A model generated the notes under the pieces. The model worked only from the letters and a program-made list of their open reading frames with translations. It did no database searches and was not told where the DNA came from. 64,000 nucleotides of DNA, taken from contig NZ_CP006367.1 in assembly GCF_001442755.1 (NCBI RefSeq), positions 3,658,001-3,722,000 of the forward strand. The letters are read 5' to 3'. Shown here piece after piece: positions 3,174 through 22,507 of this stretch. The position numbers were made by a program, and so were the translations under genes. This DNA comes from Aureimonas sp. AU20 (GTDB taxonomy: Bacteria; Pseudomonadota; Alphaproteobacteria; Rhizobiales; Rhizobiaceae). Position 1 is the first letter of the stretch. Every line of letters begins with the position of its first letter.

Positions 3174-3995
3174 ATGTGCCATGCCTGCGTCATCGACAGC
3201 GTCAAGCATTCCATGCTGTCGCGCCGGTCCTTCTTCACGGCGGCCTCCGCTTCTGCGGGCGCGGCGGTCGTGGCCCCTCTCGCCATGGCCCGCCCGGCCC
3301 TGGCCGAGGTCACCCACGGCGGGCGGGTGGTGGATCTCACCCATGCCTATGACAGCGCCTTTCCGACATTCGACGGCGTGCCGGGCATCACGCAGGAGGA
3401 GGCGGCGAATTTCGACAAGAGCGGCTACCAGCTCTACAAGCTGACGATCTTCGAGCACACCGGCACCCATATCGACGCGCCGCTCCATTTCAGCCGCGAC
3501 GGGTTGAGCGTCGACGAGCTGGAGCCCTCGCGCCTCGTCTGCCCGCTCTGCATCGTCGACATCACGGCCAAGGCTAAGGACGATCCGAACGCCACGCTGG
3601 AGGCCGAGGACATCGAGCGCTTCGTCTCCGCCCATGGCGAGATCCCGGCCGGCGCCTGCGTCGCGCTGCGCTCGGGCTGGGCCGCCAAGCTCGGCACGCC
3701 GGCCTTCCGCAACGACGCGGCGGGGAACTTCGCCTTTCCCGGTTTCGCCAAGAGTGCGACCGATCTTCTGGCCGAGCGGGATGTCAGCGCCATCGGCGTC
3801 GACACGCTGTCGCTCGACCCCGGCAATTCCGCCGACTTCGCCGTCCACTCGTCCTGGCTACCGAGCGGACGCTACGGGATCGAAGGGTTGGCCAATCTGG
3901 AAGCCCTGCCCGCGACCGGCGCGACGATCGTGGTCGGCGCGCCCAAGCACAGGGGCGGCACCGGCGGCCCGGCGCGGGTGCTGGCGTTGGTCTAG
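3174..3995 (+). CDS. Tat-exported cyclase-family (kynurenine formamidase-like) metal hydrolase
   Basis: A 273-residue member of the cyclase superfamily (PF04199), which covers metal-dependent amidohydrolases such as kynurenine formamidase. The metal-binding signature [12 protein letters not shown] lies near residues 94-105, and further family motifs follow (IGVDTLSLD, then [11 protein letters not shown] at the end). The N-terminus carries a twin-arginine signal: SRRSFF at residues 16-21, a hydrophobic Ala-rich stretch, and a likely cleavage after PALA near residue 44. The product is therefore probably exported folded to the periplasm. The ATG at 3174 was chosen because it places the Tat motif close to the N-terminus; the open frame continues upstream through repeat DNA. 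Export argues against a role in cytosolic tryptophan catabolism. The substrate is unknown. Confidence 0.85.
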
Positions 3996-10024: not shown

Positions 10025-11149
<1,125 letters not shown>

Positions 11150-11154
11150 GCGGC

Positions 11155-11610
11155 ATGGGGGTCAGCCTTCGCTCCGGCGACGACGACGACACCGGCGAAG
11201 TCGCCGACATCAACGTCACGCCCTTCATCGACGTCGTCCTTGTTCTGCTCATCATCTTCATGGTGGCCGCGCCGCTTTCCACGGTGGACGTGCCGGTGGA
11301 CCTGCCGGTTTCCAACGCGCAGCCGCAGGAGCGGCCGGACGAGCCGCTCTTCCTCACCGTGTCGAACGATCTCGACCTCGTTATGGGCGAAGCGCCGGTG
11401 GAGCGCGGCGCGCTTCAGGCCGCGCTGGATGCCAAGACCGGGGGCAAGCGCGACGAGCGCATCTTCCTGCGCGCCGACGAGAAGGTGGCCTATGGCGACC
11501 TTATGGAGGTGATGAACCTCCTGCGCACGGCGGGCTATCTCAAGATCGCGCTGGTGGGGCTGGAATCGGCCCCCGCCCCGAGCGAAGCGGCACCCGCTCT
11601 CCAGCCATGA
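11155..11610 (+). CDS. exbD: TonB-system energizer ExbD
   Basis: A 151-residue inner-membrane protein with one transmembrane helix, [20 protein letters not shown] (residues 17-36). It carries the conserved Asp used in proton translocation and a periplasmic ExbD/TolR domain (residues 45-140). It partners ExbB and TonB. Its stop codon overlaps the tonB start (ATGA), implying translational coupling. Confidence 0.95.
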
Positions 11611-12575
11611 CCCTCGCTTACGACAAGAAAGCGGAGCGCGGCGGCTCGCTGCTCGGCGCGATGCGCTGGGGCACGGCCGCCCTTGCCGTCGCCGCGCTGC
11701 ACGCGGGCGCGGCCTTCTACGTTTCCAACATGCCCGCGCCGGAAGCGCCCCCGCAAGGCACGCCCGAGGCAGCCGTGCTGATCGACCTCGCGCCGCCCGC
11801 GCCGCCGCCAAGCGCGCCGGCCGCCGAGGCGCCGCCGGTCGAGGCGCCGCCCGAGGAGGTGCCGCCGGAGCCCCAGCTAGAGCCGACACCCGAGCCGGTT
11901 CCGCCGCCGCCCGAGCCGGTGGCTCCGCCCCCCGAACCCGCGCCACCCGAGCCGCCGCCCCCGGAGCCCGTGGCCGAGCCGGAGCCTCCTCCGCCTGAGC
12001 CTATCCCGGAACCCGAGCCTTTGCCCGAACCGCCTCCGCCGGAGCCGGTGGTAACGCCCGAGGTGCCGAAGATGGAAGCGCCGCCGGAGGTCGCCGAGCG
12101 CGCGGCCGTACCGCTGCCGCGCCCGACGCCGCCTCGCCCGCGCGTGGCCGAAAAGCCGCCCGAGCGCCCGACGCCGCCCAAGCCACGCCGGGAGCGCCCG
12201 CGCGAGGAAGCGCGTCCGCGCACGCCGCCGCGCGCCGCGCCGCCGCCCTCCCGCGCCTCGCAGGCGTCCCGCGCTCCCACGACGCAAGGGGCAGCAGTGT
12301 CCTCGTCCGCGGTAGCGCGCTGGAAGTCGCAGGTTCAGTCGCGCCTCAACCGGTTCAAGCGCACTCCGCCCGGCGGCGCAGTGGGTATGCCGAGCGTGAC
12401 CTTCACCATCGGCCCATCGGGCGCCGCGTCCAACATCCGCATCGCGCGTTCCTCGGGCAATCCGATCCTGGACCAGGCGGCGCTCGATCTCGTGCGCCGC
12501 GCCAGCCCCTTTCCGTCGCCGCCCTCCGGAGAAAGCGTGTCGATCCCGCCGTTTGCGATCAACTACAAGCGGTAG
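11607..12575 (+). CDS. tonB: TonB energy-transducing protein
   Basis: A 322-residue protein with an N-terminal membrane anchor (about residues 20-42). A very long periplasmic spacer rich in Pro-Glu and then Pro-Arg (about residues 45-210) follows. The C-terminal TonB domain (about residues 228-318) has [18 protein letters not shown] and [16 protein letters not shown]. It spans the periplasm to TonB-dependent receptors, none of which is encoded in the window. Start ATG at 11607 overlaps the exbD stop. The repetitive PEP spacer makes this region prone to indels in assembly. Confidence 0.94.
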
Positions 12576-14128: not shown

Positions 14129-15460
14129 TCAGGCGGCGGCGGTCAGAAACCGCGCATCCGCCTCGTCCAGCAGCTTGCGGATCTGCGTCACTTCCTGCGC
14201 GGCGTCGGGGGTGCAGTTGGCGTAGGTGATCTTTTCGCCGGCCTTGATCGCCGCCGTCACCACCCCGCCCTCGGCAAGGCCCAGCGGCAGGCCGCCGGCC
14301 AGGCGCGCGTCCTTCCAGGTCATGGCGAAGCCGCGATATTGCGTTTCGCCGATGCGCCCGAGCACCTCGCCCACGGCGAGATCGCGCTTGGCCACCGCGA
14401 TGCATTCCCCGACCGGCCGGTCCAGTGGCTCCAGATGCGGCGCGCCGCGCATGACGGCGTGGATGGCGGACAACGGCACTTCGATCGAGGTGAGGTGGAA
14501 GGGGCGGAACAGGGCGAAGCACGGGCCGGGGCCGACCTTCAGATCGGCGATGCGCTCCAGAACGCGGGGATGCTTGGGCTTCACGATGCAGAAGACCCCG
14601 GGCGCGACGCCCTTGCCGATGGAATAATCGACGCAGCCCGAGCGCGACAGGATGCCCCCGTCCTCGCGGGTGCAGAGAACCTGCGCCAGATCCTCGGCCG
14701 TGGCGTTCGGCCCGTGCATACCGGGCACGTCGGGGCGAAGGCCCGTGGCGTTGGCGATGGCGGTCATCTCCACCATGGTCTTGGAGCCGTCCACGAACTC
14801 CACCAGCATCCGGGCATTCATGTTGCGCCGGGCGGCCTCCTCCTCGTAGTCCGCCGGCACGGCGGAGAAGTCGAGCGGGTTGTTCTTGCCCTTGCCGGCC
14901 GCCACGATCTCCAGTCCCAGCGACTGGGCAAGGCCGATCAGCTCGATCGTTGATTGCGGCTCGTCGCCGGCCGCTCCCGTGTAGACGACGCCGGCGCGCC
15001 GGGCCTCGGCCTTGAGATAGCGGCCGATCGTGATGTCGGCCTCGACATTGAGCATGACCACATGCTTGCCGTTGCGAAAGGCGTCGAGCGCGATGCGCGT
15101 GCCCGCGCTCGGGCTGCCCGTCGCGTCGATCACCACGTCGATCCGGCCCGCCGCGCAGAAGGAGCGGAAGTCCTCCACGATCGCGACCGCGCCGGCCCCG
15201 ATCGCGGCGTCCACGCCGGCCGGCGTGTCGGCGCTGCGCACGGCTGCGTCCTCATAGCCGGCAAAGCGCAGCGTTTCGCGGGCGCGGTCGGCCTTGGAGG
15301 TGGAGACGGCGCCGAGCCGGACGCCCGGCATCAGGAGAAGCTGCACCATGAGATCGGTGCCCATCTGCCCGGCGCCGGCAAGACCCACGGTGACGGGACC
15401 GCGCGCCTGCGCATAGGCCAGAAGTTCGGCCGCAAGGCCCACCCGCGCGATGCCATCCAT
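14129..15460 (-). CDS. NAD(P)-binding oxidoreductase with SAF domain (homoserine dehydrogenase-like)
   Basis: A 443-residue protein. An N-terminal Rossmann domain (VGLAGAGQMGTDL near residue 27; DVVIDATGSPSAG) resembles homoserine dehydrogenase. The middle domain has GKGKNNPLDFS and NATGLRPDVPGMHGPNAT. A C-terminal SAF-type domain (about residues 350-435) has AKRDLAVGEVLGRIG and ITYANC. Members of this family act in catabolism of branched or unusual sugar acids, and related proteins have been assigned as D-apionate oxidoisomerase. No sugar-acid genes surround it here, so the substrate is unassigned. The ATG at 15460 is the first Met just before the conserved fold; the open frame extends 14 codons further. 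It diverges from the two-component regulator. Confidence 0.78.
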   Translation of the reverse strand: MDGIARVGLAAELLAYAQARGPVTVGLAGAGQMGTDLMVQLLLMPGVRLGAVSTSKADRARETLRFAGYEDAAVRSADTPAGVDAAIGAGAVAIVEDFRSFCAAGRIDVVIDATGSPSAGTRIALDAFRNGKHVVMLNVEADITIGRYLKAEARRAGVVYTGAAGDEPQSTIELIGLAQSLGLEIVAAGKGKNNPLDFSAVPADYEEEAARRNMNARMLVEFVDGSKTMVEMTAIANATGLRPDVPGMHGPNATAEDLAQVLCTREDGGILSRSGCVDYSIGKGVAPGVFCIVKPKHPRVLERIADLKVGPGPCFALFRPFHLTSIEVPLSAIHAVMRGAPHLEPLDRPVGECIAVAKRDLAVGEVLGRIGETQYRGFAMTWKDARLAGGLPLGLAEGGVVTAAIKAGEKITYANCTPDAAQEVTQIRKLLDEADARFLTAAA

Positions 15461-15678
15461 GCTTCCAGCCTTCTTCCTGTTCCGCCGCAGAGGGCGCGAC
15501 ACTTCGTCGGTTCGGGGGATAAGGGGTGATCCGCTCCGGGATCAACCGTCTTCGTAACGTGCGGCGCATCACGCGCCCTTGTGTCCCGCCCCTTCCCGGA
15601 CGGTTTCCAAAGCCGGGCAGGCTCCCTATGCTTCGCCGGCTCGAGCATCACAAGAGATCGGACAGGCAGCCCGTCGCC

Positions 15679-16395
15679 ATGCGCATGCTTCTGGTGGAAG
15701 ACAATGAAGGGCTCGGCGACGCGGTGAACCGGCACCTGCGCAATGCCGGCCATTCCGTGGAATGGGTGCGCAGCGGCGAGGACGCGCTGGAATGCCTCGG
15801 GCTGGAGCGGTTCGACGCGGTCATTCTCGACCTGTCGCTGCCCGGCCGCGACGGGCTTTCGGTGATCGCGGAGCTGAGGCGCGGGCGCTCCAGCGTGCCG
15901 GTTCTGGTGGTCACCGCGCGGGCCGAAATCGACGATAAGGTGAGCCTTCTCGACCAGGGGGCGGACGACTATCTCGTGAAGCCCTTCGACCTGCGCGAGC
16001 TGGAAGCGCGGCTGCGCGCCCTTCTGCGCCGCCCGGCCGGGCAGACCACGAGTCTCGCCCGCGTCGGCGACGTGGAAATGGACATGGCGGGCCATCTCGT
16101 GACCGTCGGCGGCCGGCCGGTGGATCTCGGCCGGCGCGAGTTTCGTCTCCTTGAAATCCTCCTCTCCAAGCCCGGCGTCGTGGTGCAGAAGGAGCAGCTG
16201 ATGGCGCAGCTCTTCTCCTATGACGACATGGTCTCCACCAATGCGCTGGAGCTCTACGTCTCGCGCTTGCGCCGAAAGCTGGAAGGCGCCTCCGTCGAGA
16301 TCGCCACCGTGCGCGGGGCGGGCTATGTCGCGCGCGTGCCGGGCAGCGGCCCGGCGCTCGACCCGAAGGCGGCCGGCGAGCGGAAAAACGGCTGA
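15679..16395 (+). CDS. OmpR/PhoB-family response regulator (TctD-like)
   Basis: A 238-residue regulator. The receiver domain (residues 1-115) has LLVEDNEG, the phospho-acceptor Asp in AVILDLSLPGRDG (about D51) and the conserved Lys in YLVKPFDLRELEARL. The C-terminal winged helix (about residues 125-220) contains LGRREFRLLEILLSKPG and ELYVSRLRRKLEG. Its stop overlaps the kinase start by one base (TGATG). With tctCBA downstream it corresponds to TctD, which activates tricarboxylate uptake genes. A direct-repeat operator candidate lies at 18983-19002. The open frame extends upstream, but ATG 15679 starts exactly at the receiver fold. Confidence 0.92.
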   Translation: MRMLLVEDNEGLGDAVNRHLRNAGHSVEWVRSGEDALECLGLERFDAVILDLSLPGRDGLSVIAELRRGRSSVPVLVVTARAEIDDKVSLLDQGADDYLVKPFDLRELEARLRALLRRPAGQTTSLARVGDVEMDMAGHLVTVGGRPVDLGRREFRLLEILLSKPGVVVQKEQLMAQLFSYDDMVSTNALELYVSRLRRKLEGASVEIATVRGAGYVARVPGSGPALDPKAAGERKNG

Positions 16396-18926
16396 TGCCG
16401 CTGCGCTTCGCCCCGGTCCATGTCCGCGCCGCCGCCGCCCCGCCCGCCGCTAGGGTGCCGCGCCCCGTCTCGATCCGGCGGCGCATCCTGGTCTTTGCCG
16501 GCGCGCTGCTCTTGATCGCCGCCTTTGGGCTGGTTCTCTTCATCCGCGACTATGCCGAGCGCTCGTCCGACCGCGCCTTCGACCGGCTGCTCGGCGCCTC
16601 GGCGCTCACCATTGCCGGCGCGGTGCAGCTGGAGGACGGGCGCGTCACGGTGGAGCTGCCGCTCGCTTCCTTCGCCATGTTCTCGGGCGAGGATCGCATC
16701 TTCTACGCCGTGGAATCGCCGGCCGGCGAAAACGTCACCGGCGAGAGCGACCTTTCCGCCGGCTTGGCCCCCGCGACCAGCAGCGACCCCGCCTTCGCCG
16801 ACAAGACCTATCGCGACGAGGGGGTGCGCGTGGCCAGCGTCGGGCGCCTCGTCTCCACGGCGGAGGGCACGGGCTGGGTGACGATCCGCGTCGCGGAAAC
16901 GCGGGGCGAGCGCAACGCTCTGGCGCGCGAGATCCTGAACAACGCCATCCTGCCCGTTCTCCTCATGACGCTGCTGGCGCTGGTTCTCCTGTGGATCGGC
17001 ATCGGCCGCGTCTTCGCCCCACTGCTCACCCTGGAGCGGCACCTGCGCGGGCGTTCGCCGGACGATCTCTCGCCGGTCGACCTGCCCGCCCCGCTGGAAA
17101 CGGCGCAGCTCGTCGGCGCTCTGAACGGCTTCACCGCGCGGCTGAAGCTCGCCCGCGAGCGGCTGGAGGCGCTGGTGGCCGAGGCCGCTCACGAGGTCCG
17201 CACGCCGCTGGCGAGCCTTCGCGCCCAGGCCGAGCTGGCCTTGGGCGAGCGCGACCCGGCGGCGCTGCGGCGCGATGTCGAGCGCATCCACGAGGGCGCG
17301 GTGCAGGCGAGCCAGCTCGTCTCGCAGCTTCTGATGGACGCGACCGTGACGCACCGCCTGGAAAACCAGCCCGAGCCCACACCCGTCGCGCCGCTGGCGC
17401 AGGAGGTCGTGCGCCGCCTCAGCCCCGACATGGCCGAGCGGGTGTGCCTGTCCATCGCCCCCGAAGCCGCCGAGGCGGAACTGCCGATCGACCGGGTGGT
17501 GCTGCGCGAGGCCATCCGCAATCTCGTGGACAATGCCCTGCGCTATAGCGACGAGGCGGTGGAAATCCGCATCGAGCGGGACGGATCGTGGCTCGCCATT
17601 CGCGTGCTGGACCGGGGGCCGGGCATCCCCGAGCACGAGCGGCCGCTGGTCTTCCAGCGCTTCCGGCGCGGCGAAACGGGCTCGCGGCGGGACCGGGGCG
17701 GCTCGGGGCTCGGCCTTGCCATCGTCGCGCGCGTGGTGGAGGCGCATCGCGGCGAGGTGCGTCTTGGCGAGCGCGAAGGCGGCGGCCTCGACATGCATCT
17801 GCGCCTGCCGCTCGCGCCGACTGCTACGCCCCTAGCCGGGCCGGGGGCGACGCGAAGCGGGCGCGCCCTCCCGGCCCTTCTCTTGTTCGCGGCCTTCGCC
17901 GCCCTCCCCCTCCTCACCGGCCGGGCCGAGGCCGCCGCCGAGTTCCAGGCGCGTGAAAACCCGCCCTCTGCCACGCTGCGCATCCTGGGCGCGACGGACA
18001 CGGGCCTGTTCTCGCATCTGATCCGCGCCTTCCAGCGCGAGCGGCCGGACATCGCCATCACCTACGAGGAAGACGAGAGCCGCACGGTCTACGACCGGCT
18101 GGTCGCGCCCGGCGCCTCGCCGCCCGATCTCGTGGTGAGCTCGGCCTCCGACCTTCAGGTGAAGCTCGTCAACGAAGGGCTGGCGCGCGCCTATCAGCCG
18201 CCCCGGCTCGCCGGCATTCCCGACTGGGCGCATTGGCGCTCGGAGGTCTTCGGCTTCAGCTTCGAGCCGGCGGTGATCGTCTACAACCGCAATCTCATGA
18301 GCGATGCGGAAGCGCCGCGCACGCATCTCCAGCTTGCCGAACTCCTGGAGCGCGAGCCCCGGCGCTTTGCCGGCCGGGTCGGCACCTACGACGTGGCGCG
18401 CAGCGGGGTCGGCTATCTCCTGGCGACGCAGGATCAGGCGATCTCCTCCTATTTCTGGCGCCTCGCCGCCGCTTTCGGGCGCACGCAGGTTCAGCTCAGC
18501 GCCTCAAGCCCGGCAATTCTCGACCGGCTGGTGACGGGCGATCTCGCCATCGGCTACAACATCATCGGCTCCTACGCCTTCGCGCGGCAGGACGCGGGCG
18601 CTGATATCGGCATCGTGGTGCCGGACGACTACGTGCTCGTCTTCTCCCGTTCCTTTCTGATCCCCGAGGACGCGCCGCAGCCCGCGCTGGCCGAGGCCTT
18701 CATCGATTTCACCCTGTCGCCTCAGGGCCAGGCGGTTCTGGCCGGCCCCGCCGCCTTCGGCGCGCTTCTGGATGGCGAAGGGCGATGGACGGCCGCGCGC
18801 ATCACCGCGCTCGGAAAGGGCGCGGTGCAGCCCATCCGCTTCGGCCCTTCGCTGCTGGTCGGCCTCGACCGGCAGCGCCGCGAGCGCTTCCTCGCCACTT
18901 GGAGCGAGATCGTCTCGCCGCACTGA
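16395..18926 (+). CDS. Sensor histidine kinase fused to a periplasmic substrate-binding protein
   Basis: An 843-residue TctE-like kinase continued by a solute-binding domain. The order is: TM1 (residues 31-50), a sensor domain (51-180), TM2 (182-203), a HAMP-like linker, and HisKA with His266 in AHEVRTPL. The N box NLVDNALRYS (376-385) and G boxes DRGPGIP and GGSGLGLAI complete the ATPase domain by about 472. A hydrophobic stretch (491-507) ends in an Ala-X-Ala-type site (AEAA) and looks like an embedded signal peptide. An extracellular solute-binding domain (about 525-843) follows, with ILGATDTGLFSHLIRAF and DLVVSSASDLQVKLV. The frame is continuous. The segment at 491-507 should either anchor the binding domain outside the membrane or be cleaved to release it. 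Usual TctE proteins end after the ATPase domain. The ligand is presumably related to that of the adjacent tctCBA. Confidence 0.88.
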   Translation: MPLRFAPVHVRAAAAPPAARVPRPVSIRRRILVFAGALLLIAAFGLVLFIRDYAERSSDRAFDRLLGASALTIAGAVQLEDGRVTVELPLASFAMFSGEDRIFYAVESPAGENVTGESDLSAGLAPATSSDPAFADKTYRDEGVRVASVGRLVSTAEGTGWVTIRVAETRGERNALAREILNNAILPVLLMTLLALVLLWIGIGRVFAPLLTLERHLRGRSPDDLSPVDLPAPLETAQLVGALNGFTARLKLARERLEALVAEAAHEVRTPLASLRAQAELALGERDPAALRRDVERIHEGAVQASQLVSQLLMDATVTHRLENQPEPTPVAPLAQEVVRRLSPDMAERVCLSIAPEAAEAELPIDRVVLREAIRNLVDNALRYSDEAVEIRIERDGSWLAIRVLDRGPGIPEHERPLVFQRFRRGETGSRRDRGGSGLGLAIVARVVEAHRGEVRLGEREGGGLDMHLRLPLAPTATPLAGPGATRSGRALPALLLFAAFAALPLLTGRAEAAAEFQARENPPSATLRILGATDTGLFSHLIRAFQRERPDIAITYEEDESRTVYDRLVAPGASPPDLVVSSASDLQVKLVNEGLARAYQPPRLAGIPDWAHWRSEVFGFSFEPAVIVYNRNLMSDAEAPRTHLQLAELLEREPRRFAGRVGTYDVARSGVGYLLATQDQAISSYFWRLAAAFGRTQVQLSASSPAILDRLVTGDLAIGYNIIGSYAFARQDAGADIGIVVPDDYVLVFSRSFLIPEDAPQPALAEAFIDFTLSPQGQAVLAGPAAFGALLDGEGRWTAARITALGKGAVQPIRFGPSLLVGLDRQRRERFLATWSEIVSPH

Positions 18927-18982: not shown

Positions 18983-19002
18983 CTGACAGGTTTTTGACAG
19001 GT
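18983..19002. promoter_or_regulatory. Pho-box-like direct repeat upstream of tctC
   Basis: TGACAG occurs twice with 11-bp periodicity (18984-18989 and 18995-19000). On the minus strand it reads CTGTCA-N5-CTGTCA, the spacing bound by OmpR/PhoB-family regulators. It lies 235 bp before tctC and just after the kinase gene, inside a 310-bp gap with no other feature that I can support. The neighbouring TctD-like regulator is the obvious candidate; PhoB is the alternative. Confidence 0.5.
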
Positions 19003-19236
19003 CGAGCGGGCTAGTCTGAAAGGGATGGCCGGGGAGGCTTGAGGCACAGTCTTGGGAGAGCCGGCGAAACGCTCGCAGCGTTTCGCGCCGCTCGAATGTC
19101 TGGAGGGACATTCTTGCGGCCGGTCGATCCCCATTCGTTTCCGTTGTCTTTCCCTCGCGACTCGTGCCCCGCGCACGAGCCCGGCCCAAGAACATCCGGC
19201 CCCATTCGGCGGCCTTTCGTTTTGGGAGAAACACCG

Positions 19237-20196
19237 ATGAAATCCATGGTCTTCGGCGCCTTCGTCGCGCTTGCCCTCGCCTCCACCTCGGCCTTTGCGC
19301 AGAGCGCGCCCGCCTACGAGATCATGGCGCCGGCCTCGCCCGGCGGCGGTTGGGACCAGACCGCCCGCGCCATGCAGAACGTGCTTCAGGAAACCAAGCT
19401 CGCCAGCAACGTGCAGGTGGTCAACGTTCCCGGCGCCGGCGGCACGATCGGCCTCGCCCAGTTCGCCTCCACCAAGTCCGGCAATCCCAACGCGCTTCTC
19501 GTCGGCGGCTACGTGATGGTGGGCGCGATCCTCACCAACAACTCGCCGGTCAGCCTGGACGACGTGACGCCCGTGGCGCGCCTGACGGGCGAGGACGAGG
19601 CGATCGTGGTGCCGGCCTCCTCGCCCTACAAGACGATCGCCGATCTCGCGGCGGCGATGAAGGAGAACCCGGGCGCCGTCGCCATCGCTGGCGGCTCGGC
19701 CGGCGGCACGGACCATATCGCGGCGGGCCTCTTCGCCCAGGCCGTGGGCGCCGACCCGAAGGGCATCAACTACATCGCCTTCTCGGGCGGCGGCGAGGCG
19801 CTGGCGGCCATTCTCGGCCAGCAGGTCGCGGCCGGCATTTCCGGCTACGGCGAGTTCGAGGCCCAGGTGAAGGCCGGCACGCTGCGCCTTCTCGCCACGA
19901 CCGGCGAGCAGCGCGTGCCCGGCTCGGAAGCCCCGACGCTGAAAGAAGCGGGCATCGACATGGCGCTGCAGAACTGGCGCATGGTCGCCGCCGCGCCCGG
20001 CGTCTCCGCCGATCAGACCGCCGCGCTCGCCGCCAATCTTGAGAAGATGGTCGGCACGCCGGAGTGGAAGGCGGTTCTCGAGCGCAACAACTGGCAGAAC
20101 ACGTTCCTGGCCGGCGACGCCTTCAAGACCGAACTCGCCAAGAACATCGCGGACACCAAGCAGGTGCTGACCGCGATCGGCCTCGTCCAGCAGTGA
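19237..20196 (+). CDS. tctC: Tripartite tricarboxylate transporter substrate-binding protein
   Basis: A 319-residue periplasmic TctC-type receptor with a Sec signal peptide (SMVFGAFVALALASTSAFAQ, cleavage about residue 22). Family motifs are IMAPASPGGGWDQTARA near the mature N-terminus, VPGAGGTIGLAQF, and GGSAGGTDHIAA. It captures citrate or a related carboxylate for the TctA/TctB permease. The stop overlaps the tctB GTG start (GTGA). Confidence 0.93.
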   Translation: MKSMVFGAFVALALASTSAFAQSAPAYEIMAPASPGGGWDQTARAMQNVLQETKLASNVQVVNVPGAGGTIGLAQFASTKSGNPNALLVGGYVMVGAILTNNSPVSLDDVTPVARLTGEDEAIVVPASSPYKTIADLAAAMKENPGAVAIAGGSAGGTDHIAAGLFAQAVGADPKGINYIAFSGGGEALAAILGQQVAAGISGYGEFEAQVKAGTLRLLATTGEQRVPGSEAPTLKEAGIDMALQNWRMVAAAPGVSADQTAALAANLEKMVGTPEWKAVLERNNWQNTFLAGDAFKTELAKNIADTKQVLTAIGLVQQ

Positions 20197-20672
20197 GCGC
20201 CCCGCTCGCTCCCGCGCGCCGCCCCGACAGGGCGGCGCTTGCCATCGGCATCGGGCTCGGCGTTCTCGGCCTCCTGGTCGGTTGGGATGCGCGCAATGTC
20301 GGCGGCGGCACCTATGCGCGCATCGGGCCGGCCACCTTTCCCTATGTCATCTCCGCCGTTCTGATCGCCCTTTCGATCTGGACGATGGTGGAAGCCTGGC
20401 GCGGCCAGTTTCCCGAGCGCGACCATGACGAGGGCAAGCCCGTTCTCTGGATCGTGGGAGGCCTTGCCGCGCAGCTCGTGCTCCTGAACACGGCGGGCTT
20501 CTCCATCGCGACGGGGCTTCTCTTCGCCGCGACGGCGCGCGCCTTCGGCAAGCGCAAGCTGCATGTCTCGGTGCCGCTCGGCATCCTCATCAGCTTCGCG
20601 ATCTGGATTCTGTTCTCGCAGGTCCTGCGCCTGTCCTTGCCGGCCGGCCCGCTGGAGCGCCTGTTCTTCTAA
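20193..20672 (+). CDS. tctB: Tripartite tricarboxylate transporter small membrane subunit
   Basis: A 159-residue protein with four predicted membrane segments, matching the small TctB subunit in size and position. The conserved early segment GGGTYARIGPATFPYVISAV follows the first helix. The start is GTG at 20193, overlapping the tctC stop, so the two are translationally coupled. A 224-bp non-coding gap then precedes tctA, unusual for this normally compact operon. Confidence 0.9.
   Translation: MSAPLAPARRPDRAALAIGIGLGVLGLLVGWDARNVGGGTYARIGPATFPYVISAVLIALSIWTMVEAWRGQFPERDHDEGKPVLWIVGGLAAQLVLLNTAGFSIATGLLFAATARAFGKRKLHVSVPLGILISFAIWILFSQVLRLSLPAGPLERLFF

Positions 20673-20896: not shown

Positions 20897-22507
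<1,611 letters not shown>

Follow-up and report, generated by a model that had tools for sequence, protein, structure and literature searches.

A TctE-type sensor kinase fused in frame to a solute-binding protein behind an internal signal peptide in Aureimonas sp. AU20

About ten cases in which a periplasmic solute-binding protein (SBP) activates a sensor kinase were counted in 2022 (PMC9602780). Among the closest described systems are TctD-TctE, the citrate-responsive regulators of Salmonella and Pseudomonas (PMC6403454), and BctC-BctE-BctD of Bordetella pertussis, a three-component system for citrate that is linked to a tripartite tricarboxylate transporter (PMC5812351, PMC9602780). Here we describe a locus in a 64,000-nucleotide stretch of the Aureimonas sp. 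AU20 genome (the window; contig NZ_CP006367.1, positions 3,658,001 to 3,722,000), where a TctE-type kinase continues in one open frame into an SBP. As described, the Bct system likewise has a kinase and a regulator beside tctCBA-type genes and a citrate-binding periplasmic protein that acts on the kinase. In Bordetella, however, signalling falls to the TctC-family SBP of the transporter itself, which is a polypeptide of its own, whereas the Aureimonas kinase is fused to an additional SBP from a different family. CuaD-CuaS-CuaR of Ruminiclostridium cellulolyticum, a cellobiose three-component system (PMC10384115), is reported to have, next to kinase and regulator, an SBP dedicated to signalling that differs from the one used for transport, but the signalling SBP is a separate predicted lipoprotein, and the system belongs with cellobiose and an ABC transporter. 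BvgS and EvgS unite SBP-like periplasmic domains and a kinase in a single chain (PMC8534201). In the Aureimonas protein, by contrast, the SBP is C-terminal, past the ATPase domain and behind a signal peptide. In BvgS and EvgS, the SBP-like domains precede the kinase and make up the periplasmic sensor region. Two proteins from one gene, separated after synthesis at an internal signal peptide, are known from FbcH, the cytochrome b-c1 polyprotein of Bradyrhizobium, which is respiratory and not a sensor. SBP-kinase-regulator systems are a known class; for a C-terminal SBP fusion behind an internal signal peptide, our searches of open-licence PMC papers returned no description, although many such fusion proteins sit in databases under automatic names.

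The fusion gene is a single open frame (16395-18926, forward strand) that runs from an ATG to a TGA without internal stops and encodes a protein of 843 residues (91 kDa). Its Pfam matches, all above the curated cut-offs, confirm that kinase and binding domain share one uninterrupted frame: the periplasmic sensor domain 2CSK_N (16512-16934, residues 40-180) is followed by HisKA (17166-17342, residues 258-316) with the phospho-acceptor His266, by HATPase_c (17490-17816, residues 366-474) and, in the C-terminal part, by overlapping matches to SBP_bac_11, SBP_bac_8, SBP_bac_1 and SBP_bac_6 at residues 536-784. In the modelled secondary structure, 2CSK_N lies between two transmembrane segments, TM1 (within helix 27-75) and TM2 (within helix 171-219). 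The domain order is that of a TctE-type sensor kinase, but a TctE chain ends after the ATPase domain, whereas here a 320-residue SBP domain comes next. The position of that domain (residues 524-843, after HATPase_c) also sets the protein apart from Venus-flytrap kinases of the BvgS type, in which the SBP-like domain is N-terminal to the kinase. Since His266, Asn380, Gly438 and Gly440 are invariant in an alignment of 43 fusions, the kinase half looks active.

Two genes joined by a frameshift or a misassembly could produce such a frame, and orthologues in other genera do consist of two genes. However, in-frame fusion is also seen in the closest relatives (86, 81 and 77% identity) and in every one of the best 120 of 2061 significant matches (query included; 7996 candidates scored), which are full length at 806-856 residues and 94-100% query coverage. 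The full-length frame without stops is likewise present in 20 of 21 genomes of the genus, its own included, G017 being the sole genome without the gene. We therefore rejected the artefact, whose probability we consider negligible. The original prediction had also named orthologues with two separate genes as grounds for doubting the fusion. These do occur in other lineages (56 distinct loci), where they represent an alternative state of the genes and not an error here.

The join has the character of a Sec signal peptide (17853-17933, forward strand, about residues 487-513), as judged from hydropathy, site counts and the structural model. Across residues 475-523, an arginine-bearing n-region leads into a hydrophobic core (491-507) and AEA/AAA at 511-515, which is essentially the hydrophobic segment with an Ala-X-Ala site noticed earlier, and signal peptidase I (SPase I) is predicted to cut after A513 or A515. 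Among 44 non-redundant fusions the mean hydropathy of the best 19 residues at the join was 1.85, similar to that of the signal peptides of 41 split SBPs (1.82, p=0.69; 1.69 with a shorter stretch), whereas TM1 (2.61) and TM2 (2.47) of the fusions themselves are much more hydrophobic (p about 1e-12). An SPase-I-type site was found at the join in 182 of 182 distinct fusions, which are not independent, many being closely related; Ala occupies position -1 in 179 of them and position -3 in 152, with Val at -3 in a further 18, while position -2 is free. Because the site picker takes the best position, we added controls. A strong SPase I site was present at 165 of the 182 joins, against 35 following TM1 and an expectation of 83 for shuffled tails, and a strict AXA occurred in 35 of 44 joins, 18 of 44 stretches after TM1 and 35 of 41 split signal peptides. 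The protein combines an internal signal peptide with an SPase I site, as expected of an internally cleaved polyprotein. Conservation of Ala at -1 and -3 would be hard to account for if the join were a pure anchor; the signal peptide there probably still works as one and is cut.

It had been suggested instead that the export signal had turned into a third membrane segment, with the binding domain acting as a tethered or released sensor. The export signal is borne out by hydropathy and by the SPase-I-type sites; the same two lines of evidence leave its conversion into a membrane segment unsupported, and of the two fates of the binding domain, they lean towards release. Were the signal peptide left uncut as a third membrane helix (N-in, C-out), the SBP would stay covalently attached to the kinase at a higher effective concentration near 2CSK_N. 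Such proximity could itself select for fusion, and split SBPs of one group related to a fused pair may be tethered by other means, being lipoprotein-like (L095, L096) or anchor-like (L085), which suggests that membrane tethering may be useful in some lineages. A tethered sensor of this kind nevertheless seems to us unlikely, given the conserved cleavage-type sites and a join clearly less hydrophobic than the membrane helices of the same chains. In an AlphaFold model of the fusion (mean pLDDT, the predicted local distance difference test, 85.5; pTM, the predicted template modelling score, 0.65), TM1 and TM2 are confident helices, whereas residues 475-511 have no helix and a pLDDT below 50 (block means of 33-41 for 481-510); this is weak evidence, since signal peptides are often modelled poorly.

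The survey of orthologues found both states and supports the view that two genes were joined in frame. Among 94 loci inspected for the kinase-SBP pair, which were picked from search matches and are not a random sample, 33 were fused, 57 were split (56 distinct, as L161 duplicates L111) and four had no pair (L046, L155, L158 and L164, left out of the tree and junction counts). The distinct split pairs are mostly in tandem (51, against 5 divergent), with the SBP start overlapping the kinase stop by 4 bases in 41 of the 51, by 1 base in 2 and arranged otherwise in 8. A small frameshift at such an overlap would fuse the genes and leave the signal peptide intact, which could explain how fusions recur. 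One genome, G034, has the gene order of the window (regulator, kinase, SBP, tctC, tctB, tctA) with kinase and SBP as two genes; other split cassettes are divergent from tctCBA. When trees were built from 85 non-redundant pairs (44 of them fused and 41 split), seven changes of state were needed on the best tree for the kinase and also on the best tree for the SBP, a count that does not distinguish fusion from later re-splitting. Well-supported branches force at least six changes in the kinase tree but only three in the SBP tree, whose bootstrap trees give five to eight. Fusions from Sulfitobacter and G278 nest in an otherwise split group in both trees, apart from the group of the window, and at least two independent fusion events are therefore likely. 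The split forms of Ensifer, Shinella and G221 fall within a second family, in which most members are fused, and might have been split again. A recent fusion within one genus, considered because congeners of G278 have split genes, was rejected, as both trees place G278 with the fused Sulfitobacter protein rather than with the split genes of its congeners. We also rejected stop-codon read-through in G183 and G269, where a full-length match contains one TGA, since a start for the SBP is possible six bases past the first base of the TGA and the SBP has a lipoprotein-like signal of its own. By eye, these split SBPs (L095 and L096) have a LAAC/LAGC lipobox; that of L085 (G373) resembles an uncleaved signal anchor.

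The binding domain (17964-18923, forward strand, residues 524-843) has the fold of the metal-citrate-binding protein MctA, which, like 3c9h of Agrobacterium tumefaciens, is a free protein labelled as an ABC-transporter component, not fused to a kinase. Our information on MctA comes from the titles of its PDB entries (7f6e, 7f6f and mutants), and the six positions compared are those mutated in the deposited entries; we infer contact with the ligand because these positions were mutated and because four of the mutants carry apo in their titles. Residues S26, D28, S79, S164, T199 and Y221 of MctA correspond to A533, D535, S583, S670, S705 and Y727 here, four of six being identical, with Thr replaced by Ser and Ser by Ala, and these are the putative ligand residues of the domain. 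We derived this correspondence by manual counting on the alignment (offset 2) and checked it against the letters of the mutants.

Because ABC transporters are the usual partners of SBPs with this fold, the SBP half might be a transport subunit that feeds TctBA or another permease, its fusion an accident of operon compaction with no role in signalling. We consider this improbable. TctBA already has a binding protein of a different family in TctC, and no ABC permease was present among the flanking genes examined (11.0 to 27.8 kb of the window). Moreover, the SBP keeps company with the kinase and regulator, whether fused or split, in many families, even where tctCBA was not detected in the stretch examined. 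This association also supports, by inference, the proposed role of the binding domain as a ligand sensor for the kinase; the locus, with its SBP linked to a kinase and an OmpR-type regulator, has the composition of a three-component system.

The interval from the fusion gene to tctC contains TGACAGGTTTTTGACAGG (18984-19001, forward strand), a direct repeat TGACAGG-TTTT-TGACAGG with an 11-bp period that is a putative response-regulator site. A possible -10 element, TAGTCT (19012-19017, forward strand), follows, and a TA-rich step at a similar distance is common in relatives. GACAG-N6-GACAG was counted 63 times across 92 loci (1.28 Mb, including many close relatives), falling in 59 of them, compared with 4, 6 and 6 occurrences for other spacings, none for the inverted arrangement and 0-3 in Markov sequence; a T precedes the first GACAG copy in 57 of the 63. 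The 21 genus genomes contain 26 occurrences of TGACAGG-N5-GACAG (3 for the reversed-pattern control), of which 20 fall in the interval that separates the fusion from tctC, one per fusion-bearing genome (20/20), another adjoins the second fused gene of G014 and five are elsewhere, including one in the fusion-less G017. In the window's own genome, TGACAG-N5-TGACAG has one exact match, namely the repeat before tctC. The layout resembles the two-box OmpR/PhoB type; a TctD motif of Pseudomonas has been published (PMC4513871).

We propose, as the probable explanation of these features, that the gene encodes a sensor polyprotein that is cut at its internal signal peptide, and that the freed, citrate-sensing SBP acts on the kinase, whose regulator activates tctCBA. 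The kinase half would insert through its two membrane helices, and continued translation would produce the Sec signal peptide, which would direct the binding domain to the periplasm for cleavage by SPase I, so that kinase and binding protein would be made in equal amounts and at the same place. As a dedicated sensor of citrate or metal-citrate, distinct from the transporter's TctC, the ligand-loaded SBP might dock on 2CSK_N and alter kinase activity. The kinase could then phosphorylate the adjacent OmpR-type regulator, which would bind TGACAGG-N4-TGACAGG before tctC and switch on tctCBA. The fusion itself would derive from translationally coupled neighbours and would have arisen, or been undone, several times.

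Several observations weigh against this account. The internal signal lies some 490 residues into the chain and may be cut poorly; Ala is common and the picker chooses among several positions, as the number of sites expected from the shuffles illustrates; and the lipoprotein-like and anchor-like split SBPs come from one group related to a fused pair. At the ligand site, S26 of MctA is Ala. No docking-specific correlation of distances emerged: SBP distances correlate with those of the sensor domain at 0.70 (split) and 0.78 (fused) and with those of the catalytic domain at 0.74 and 0.82, and since the latter are at least as high, they give no specific sign of docking and we dropped sensor-SBP co-evolution as evidence. 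An exact copy of the repeat is absent from 33 of the 92 loci, the window's genome has nine one-mismatch matches to TGACAG-N5-TGACAG, and the stricter pattern GACAGG-N5-GACAGG has two exact matches there, the second elsewhere. Finally, residue 467 of the fusion protein is encoded by an in-frame ATG, in the last ATPase strand and 24 residues ahead of the hydrophobic core, and there is a TTG at residue 497. An SBP precursor might accordingly also be started within the gene, besides or instead of cleavage, and a potential start near the join, ATG in 6 and GTG in 8, is present in 14 of 33 fused loci. We regard such dual translation as very improbable: 19 of the 33 have neither codon in the scanned stretch, which began near residue 471, short of 467, and in which TTG was uncounted; Met467 is replaced by another residue in the other 11 of 12 seeds; and no start codon is conserved at one place.

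Full-length fusions are not confined to the genus. Among the best 120 matches, those with names come chiefly from Aureimonas (59-81%) and Devosia (56-60%), and Pelagibacterium (59%) is also represented; at least 21 of 397 genomes in an order-wide sample carry a full-length fusion (20 from one search, G278 from another), and others are plasmid-borne in Azospirillum, Peteryoungia and Sulfitobacter. A contig survey by name (at least 80 loci), which says little on the spread of fusions, found both genes in only 5 of 80, all separate, including those of Achromobacter and Janthinobacterium. The second, diverged fused family has a copy in G014 beside the first kind and at least 36 full-length matches, two at 99% and 76% identity and the others at 41-50%, from genera that include Thalassospira, Halomonas, Martelella, Nitratireductor, Pelagibacterium, Devosia and Tropicimonas. 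The G014 member (L041:10495-12882, reverse strand) adjoins a gene for a phosphonate-binding protein and an ABC permease, has the same 11-bp repeat in its divergent promoter and has lost the citrate-site residues.

On balance we lean towards a broader interpretation, in which widespread sensor polyproteins supply a kinase and its ligand-sensing SBP as one product, cut by signal peptidase at a conserved internal signal. They would have evolved repeatedly from overlapping gene pairs and would comprise at least two specificities, a citrate type by tctCBA and a second by phosphonate genes, each wired to its own transporter through an 11-bp repeat of the TGACAG type. SBP-kinase partners are hard to predict, and the gene fusion names them directly in many species; split relatives inherit the assignment. 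If cleaved, the fusions would by simple means yield a receptor and its soluble co-receptor in a fixed 1:1 ratio. They also suggest testable ligands for many kinases and SBPs that are named only 'TctE' or 'extracellular solute-binding protein'.

The neighbouring genes are consistent with the predicted placement of the fusion upstream of tctCBA. The OmpR/PhoB-type, TctD-like response regulator (15679-16395, forward strand; start MRMLLVEDN; Pfam Response_reg and Trans_reg_C) overlaps the fusion-gene start with its stop by 1 nt, and its best NCBIfam model is TctD (NF012023; 206.9 bits, under the cut-off of 337). Downstream on the same strand follow tctC (19237-20196, PF03401), encoding the substrate-binding subunit of the tripartite tricarboxylate transporter, tctB (20193-20672, PF07331) and tctA (20897-22507, PF01970). 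Further flanking genes encode a GNAT acetyltransferase, a helix-turn-helix-cupin regulator, a DRL-type oxidoreductase, an AI-2E-family transporter and a glycogen-debranching-type enzyme.

In Azospirillum thermophilum (L172), four copies of the repeat (at 3613, 5121, 8393 and 10886) precede a small gene, the regulator, a malic enzyme and an operon running into citrate lyase, which makes this fusion-bearing locus a candidate citrate regulon. The second GACAGG-N5-GACAGG match in the window's genome (L255, around 1501; G000:C1:2010091-2010107, reverse strand) lies just upstream of a PF00155 aminotransferase-family open reading frame that resembles 5-aminolevulinate synthase, and may be due to chance. 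The gene for the DRL-type oxidoreductase (14129-15502, reverse strand, PF21135) is divergent from the regulator and stands beside the cassette in many genus genomes. Farther upstream, 11007-12575 (forward strand) encodes a TonB C-terminal protein with a very long Pro-rich linker.

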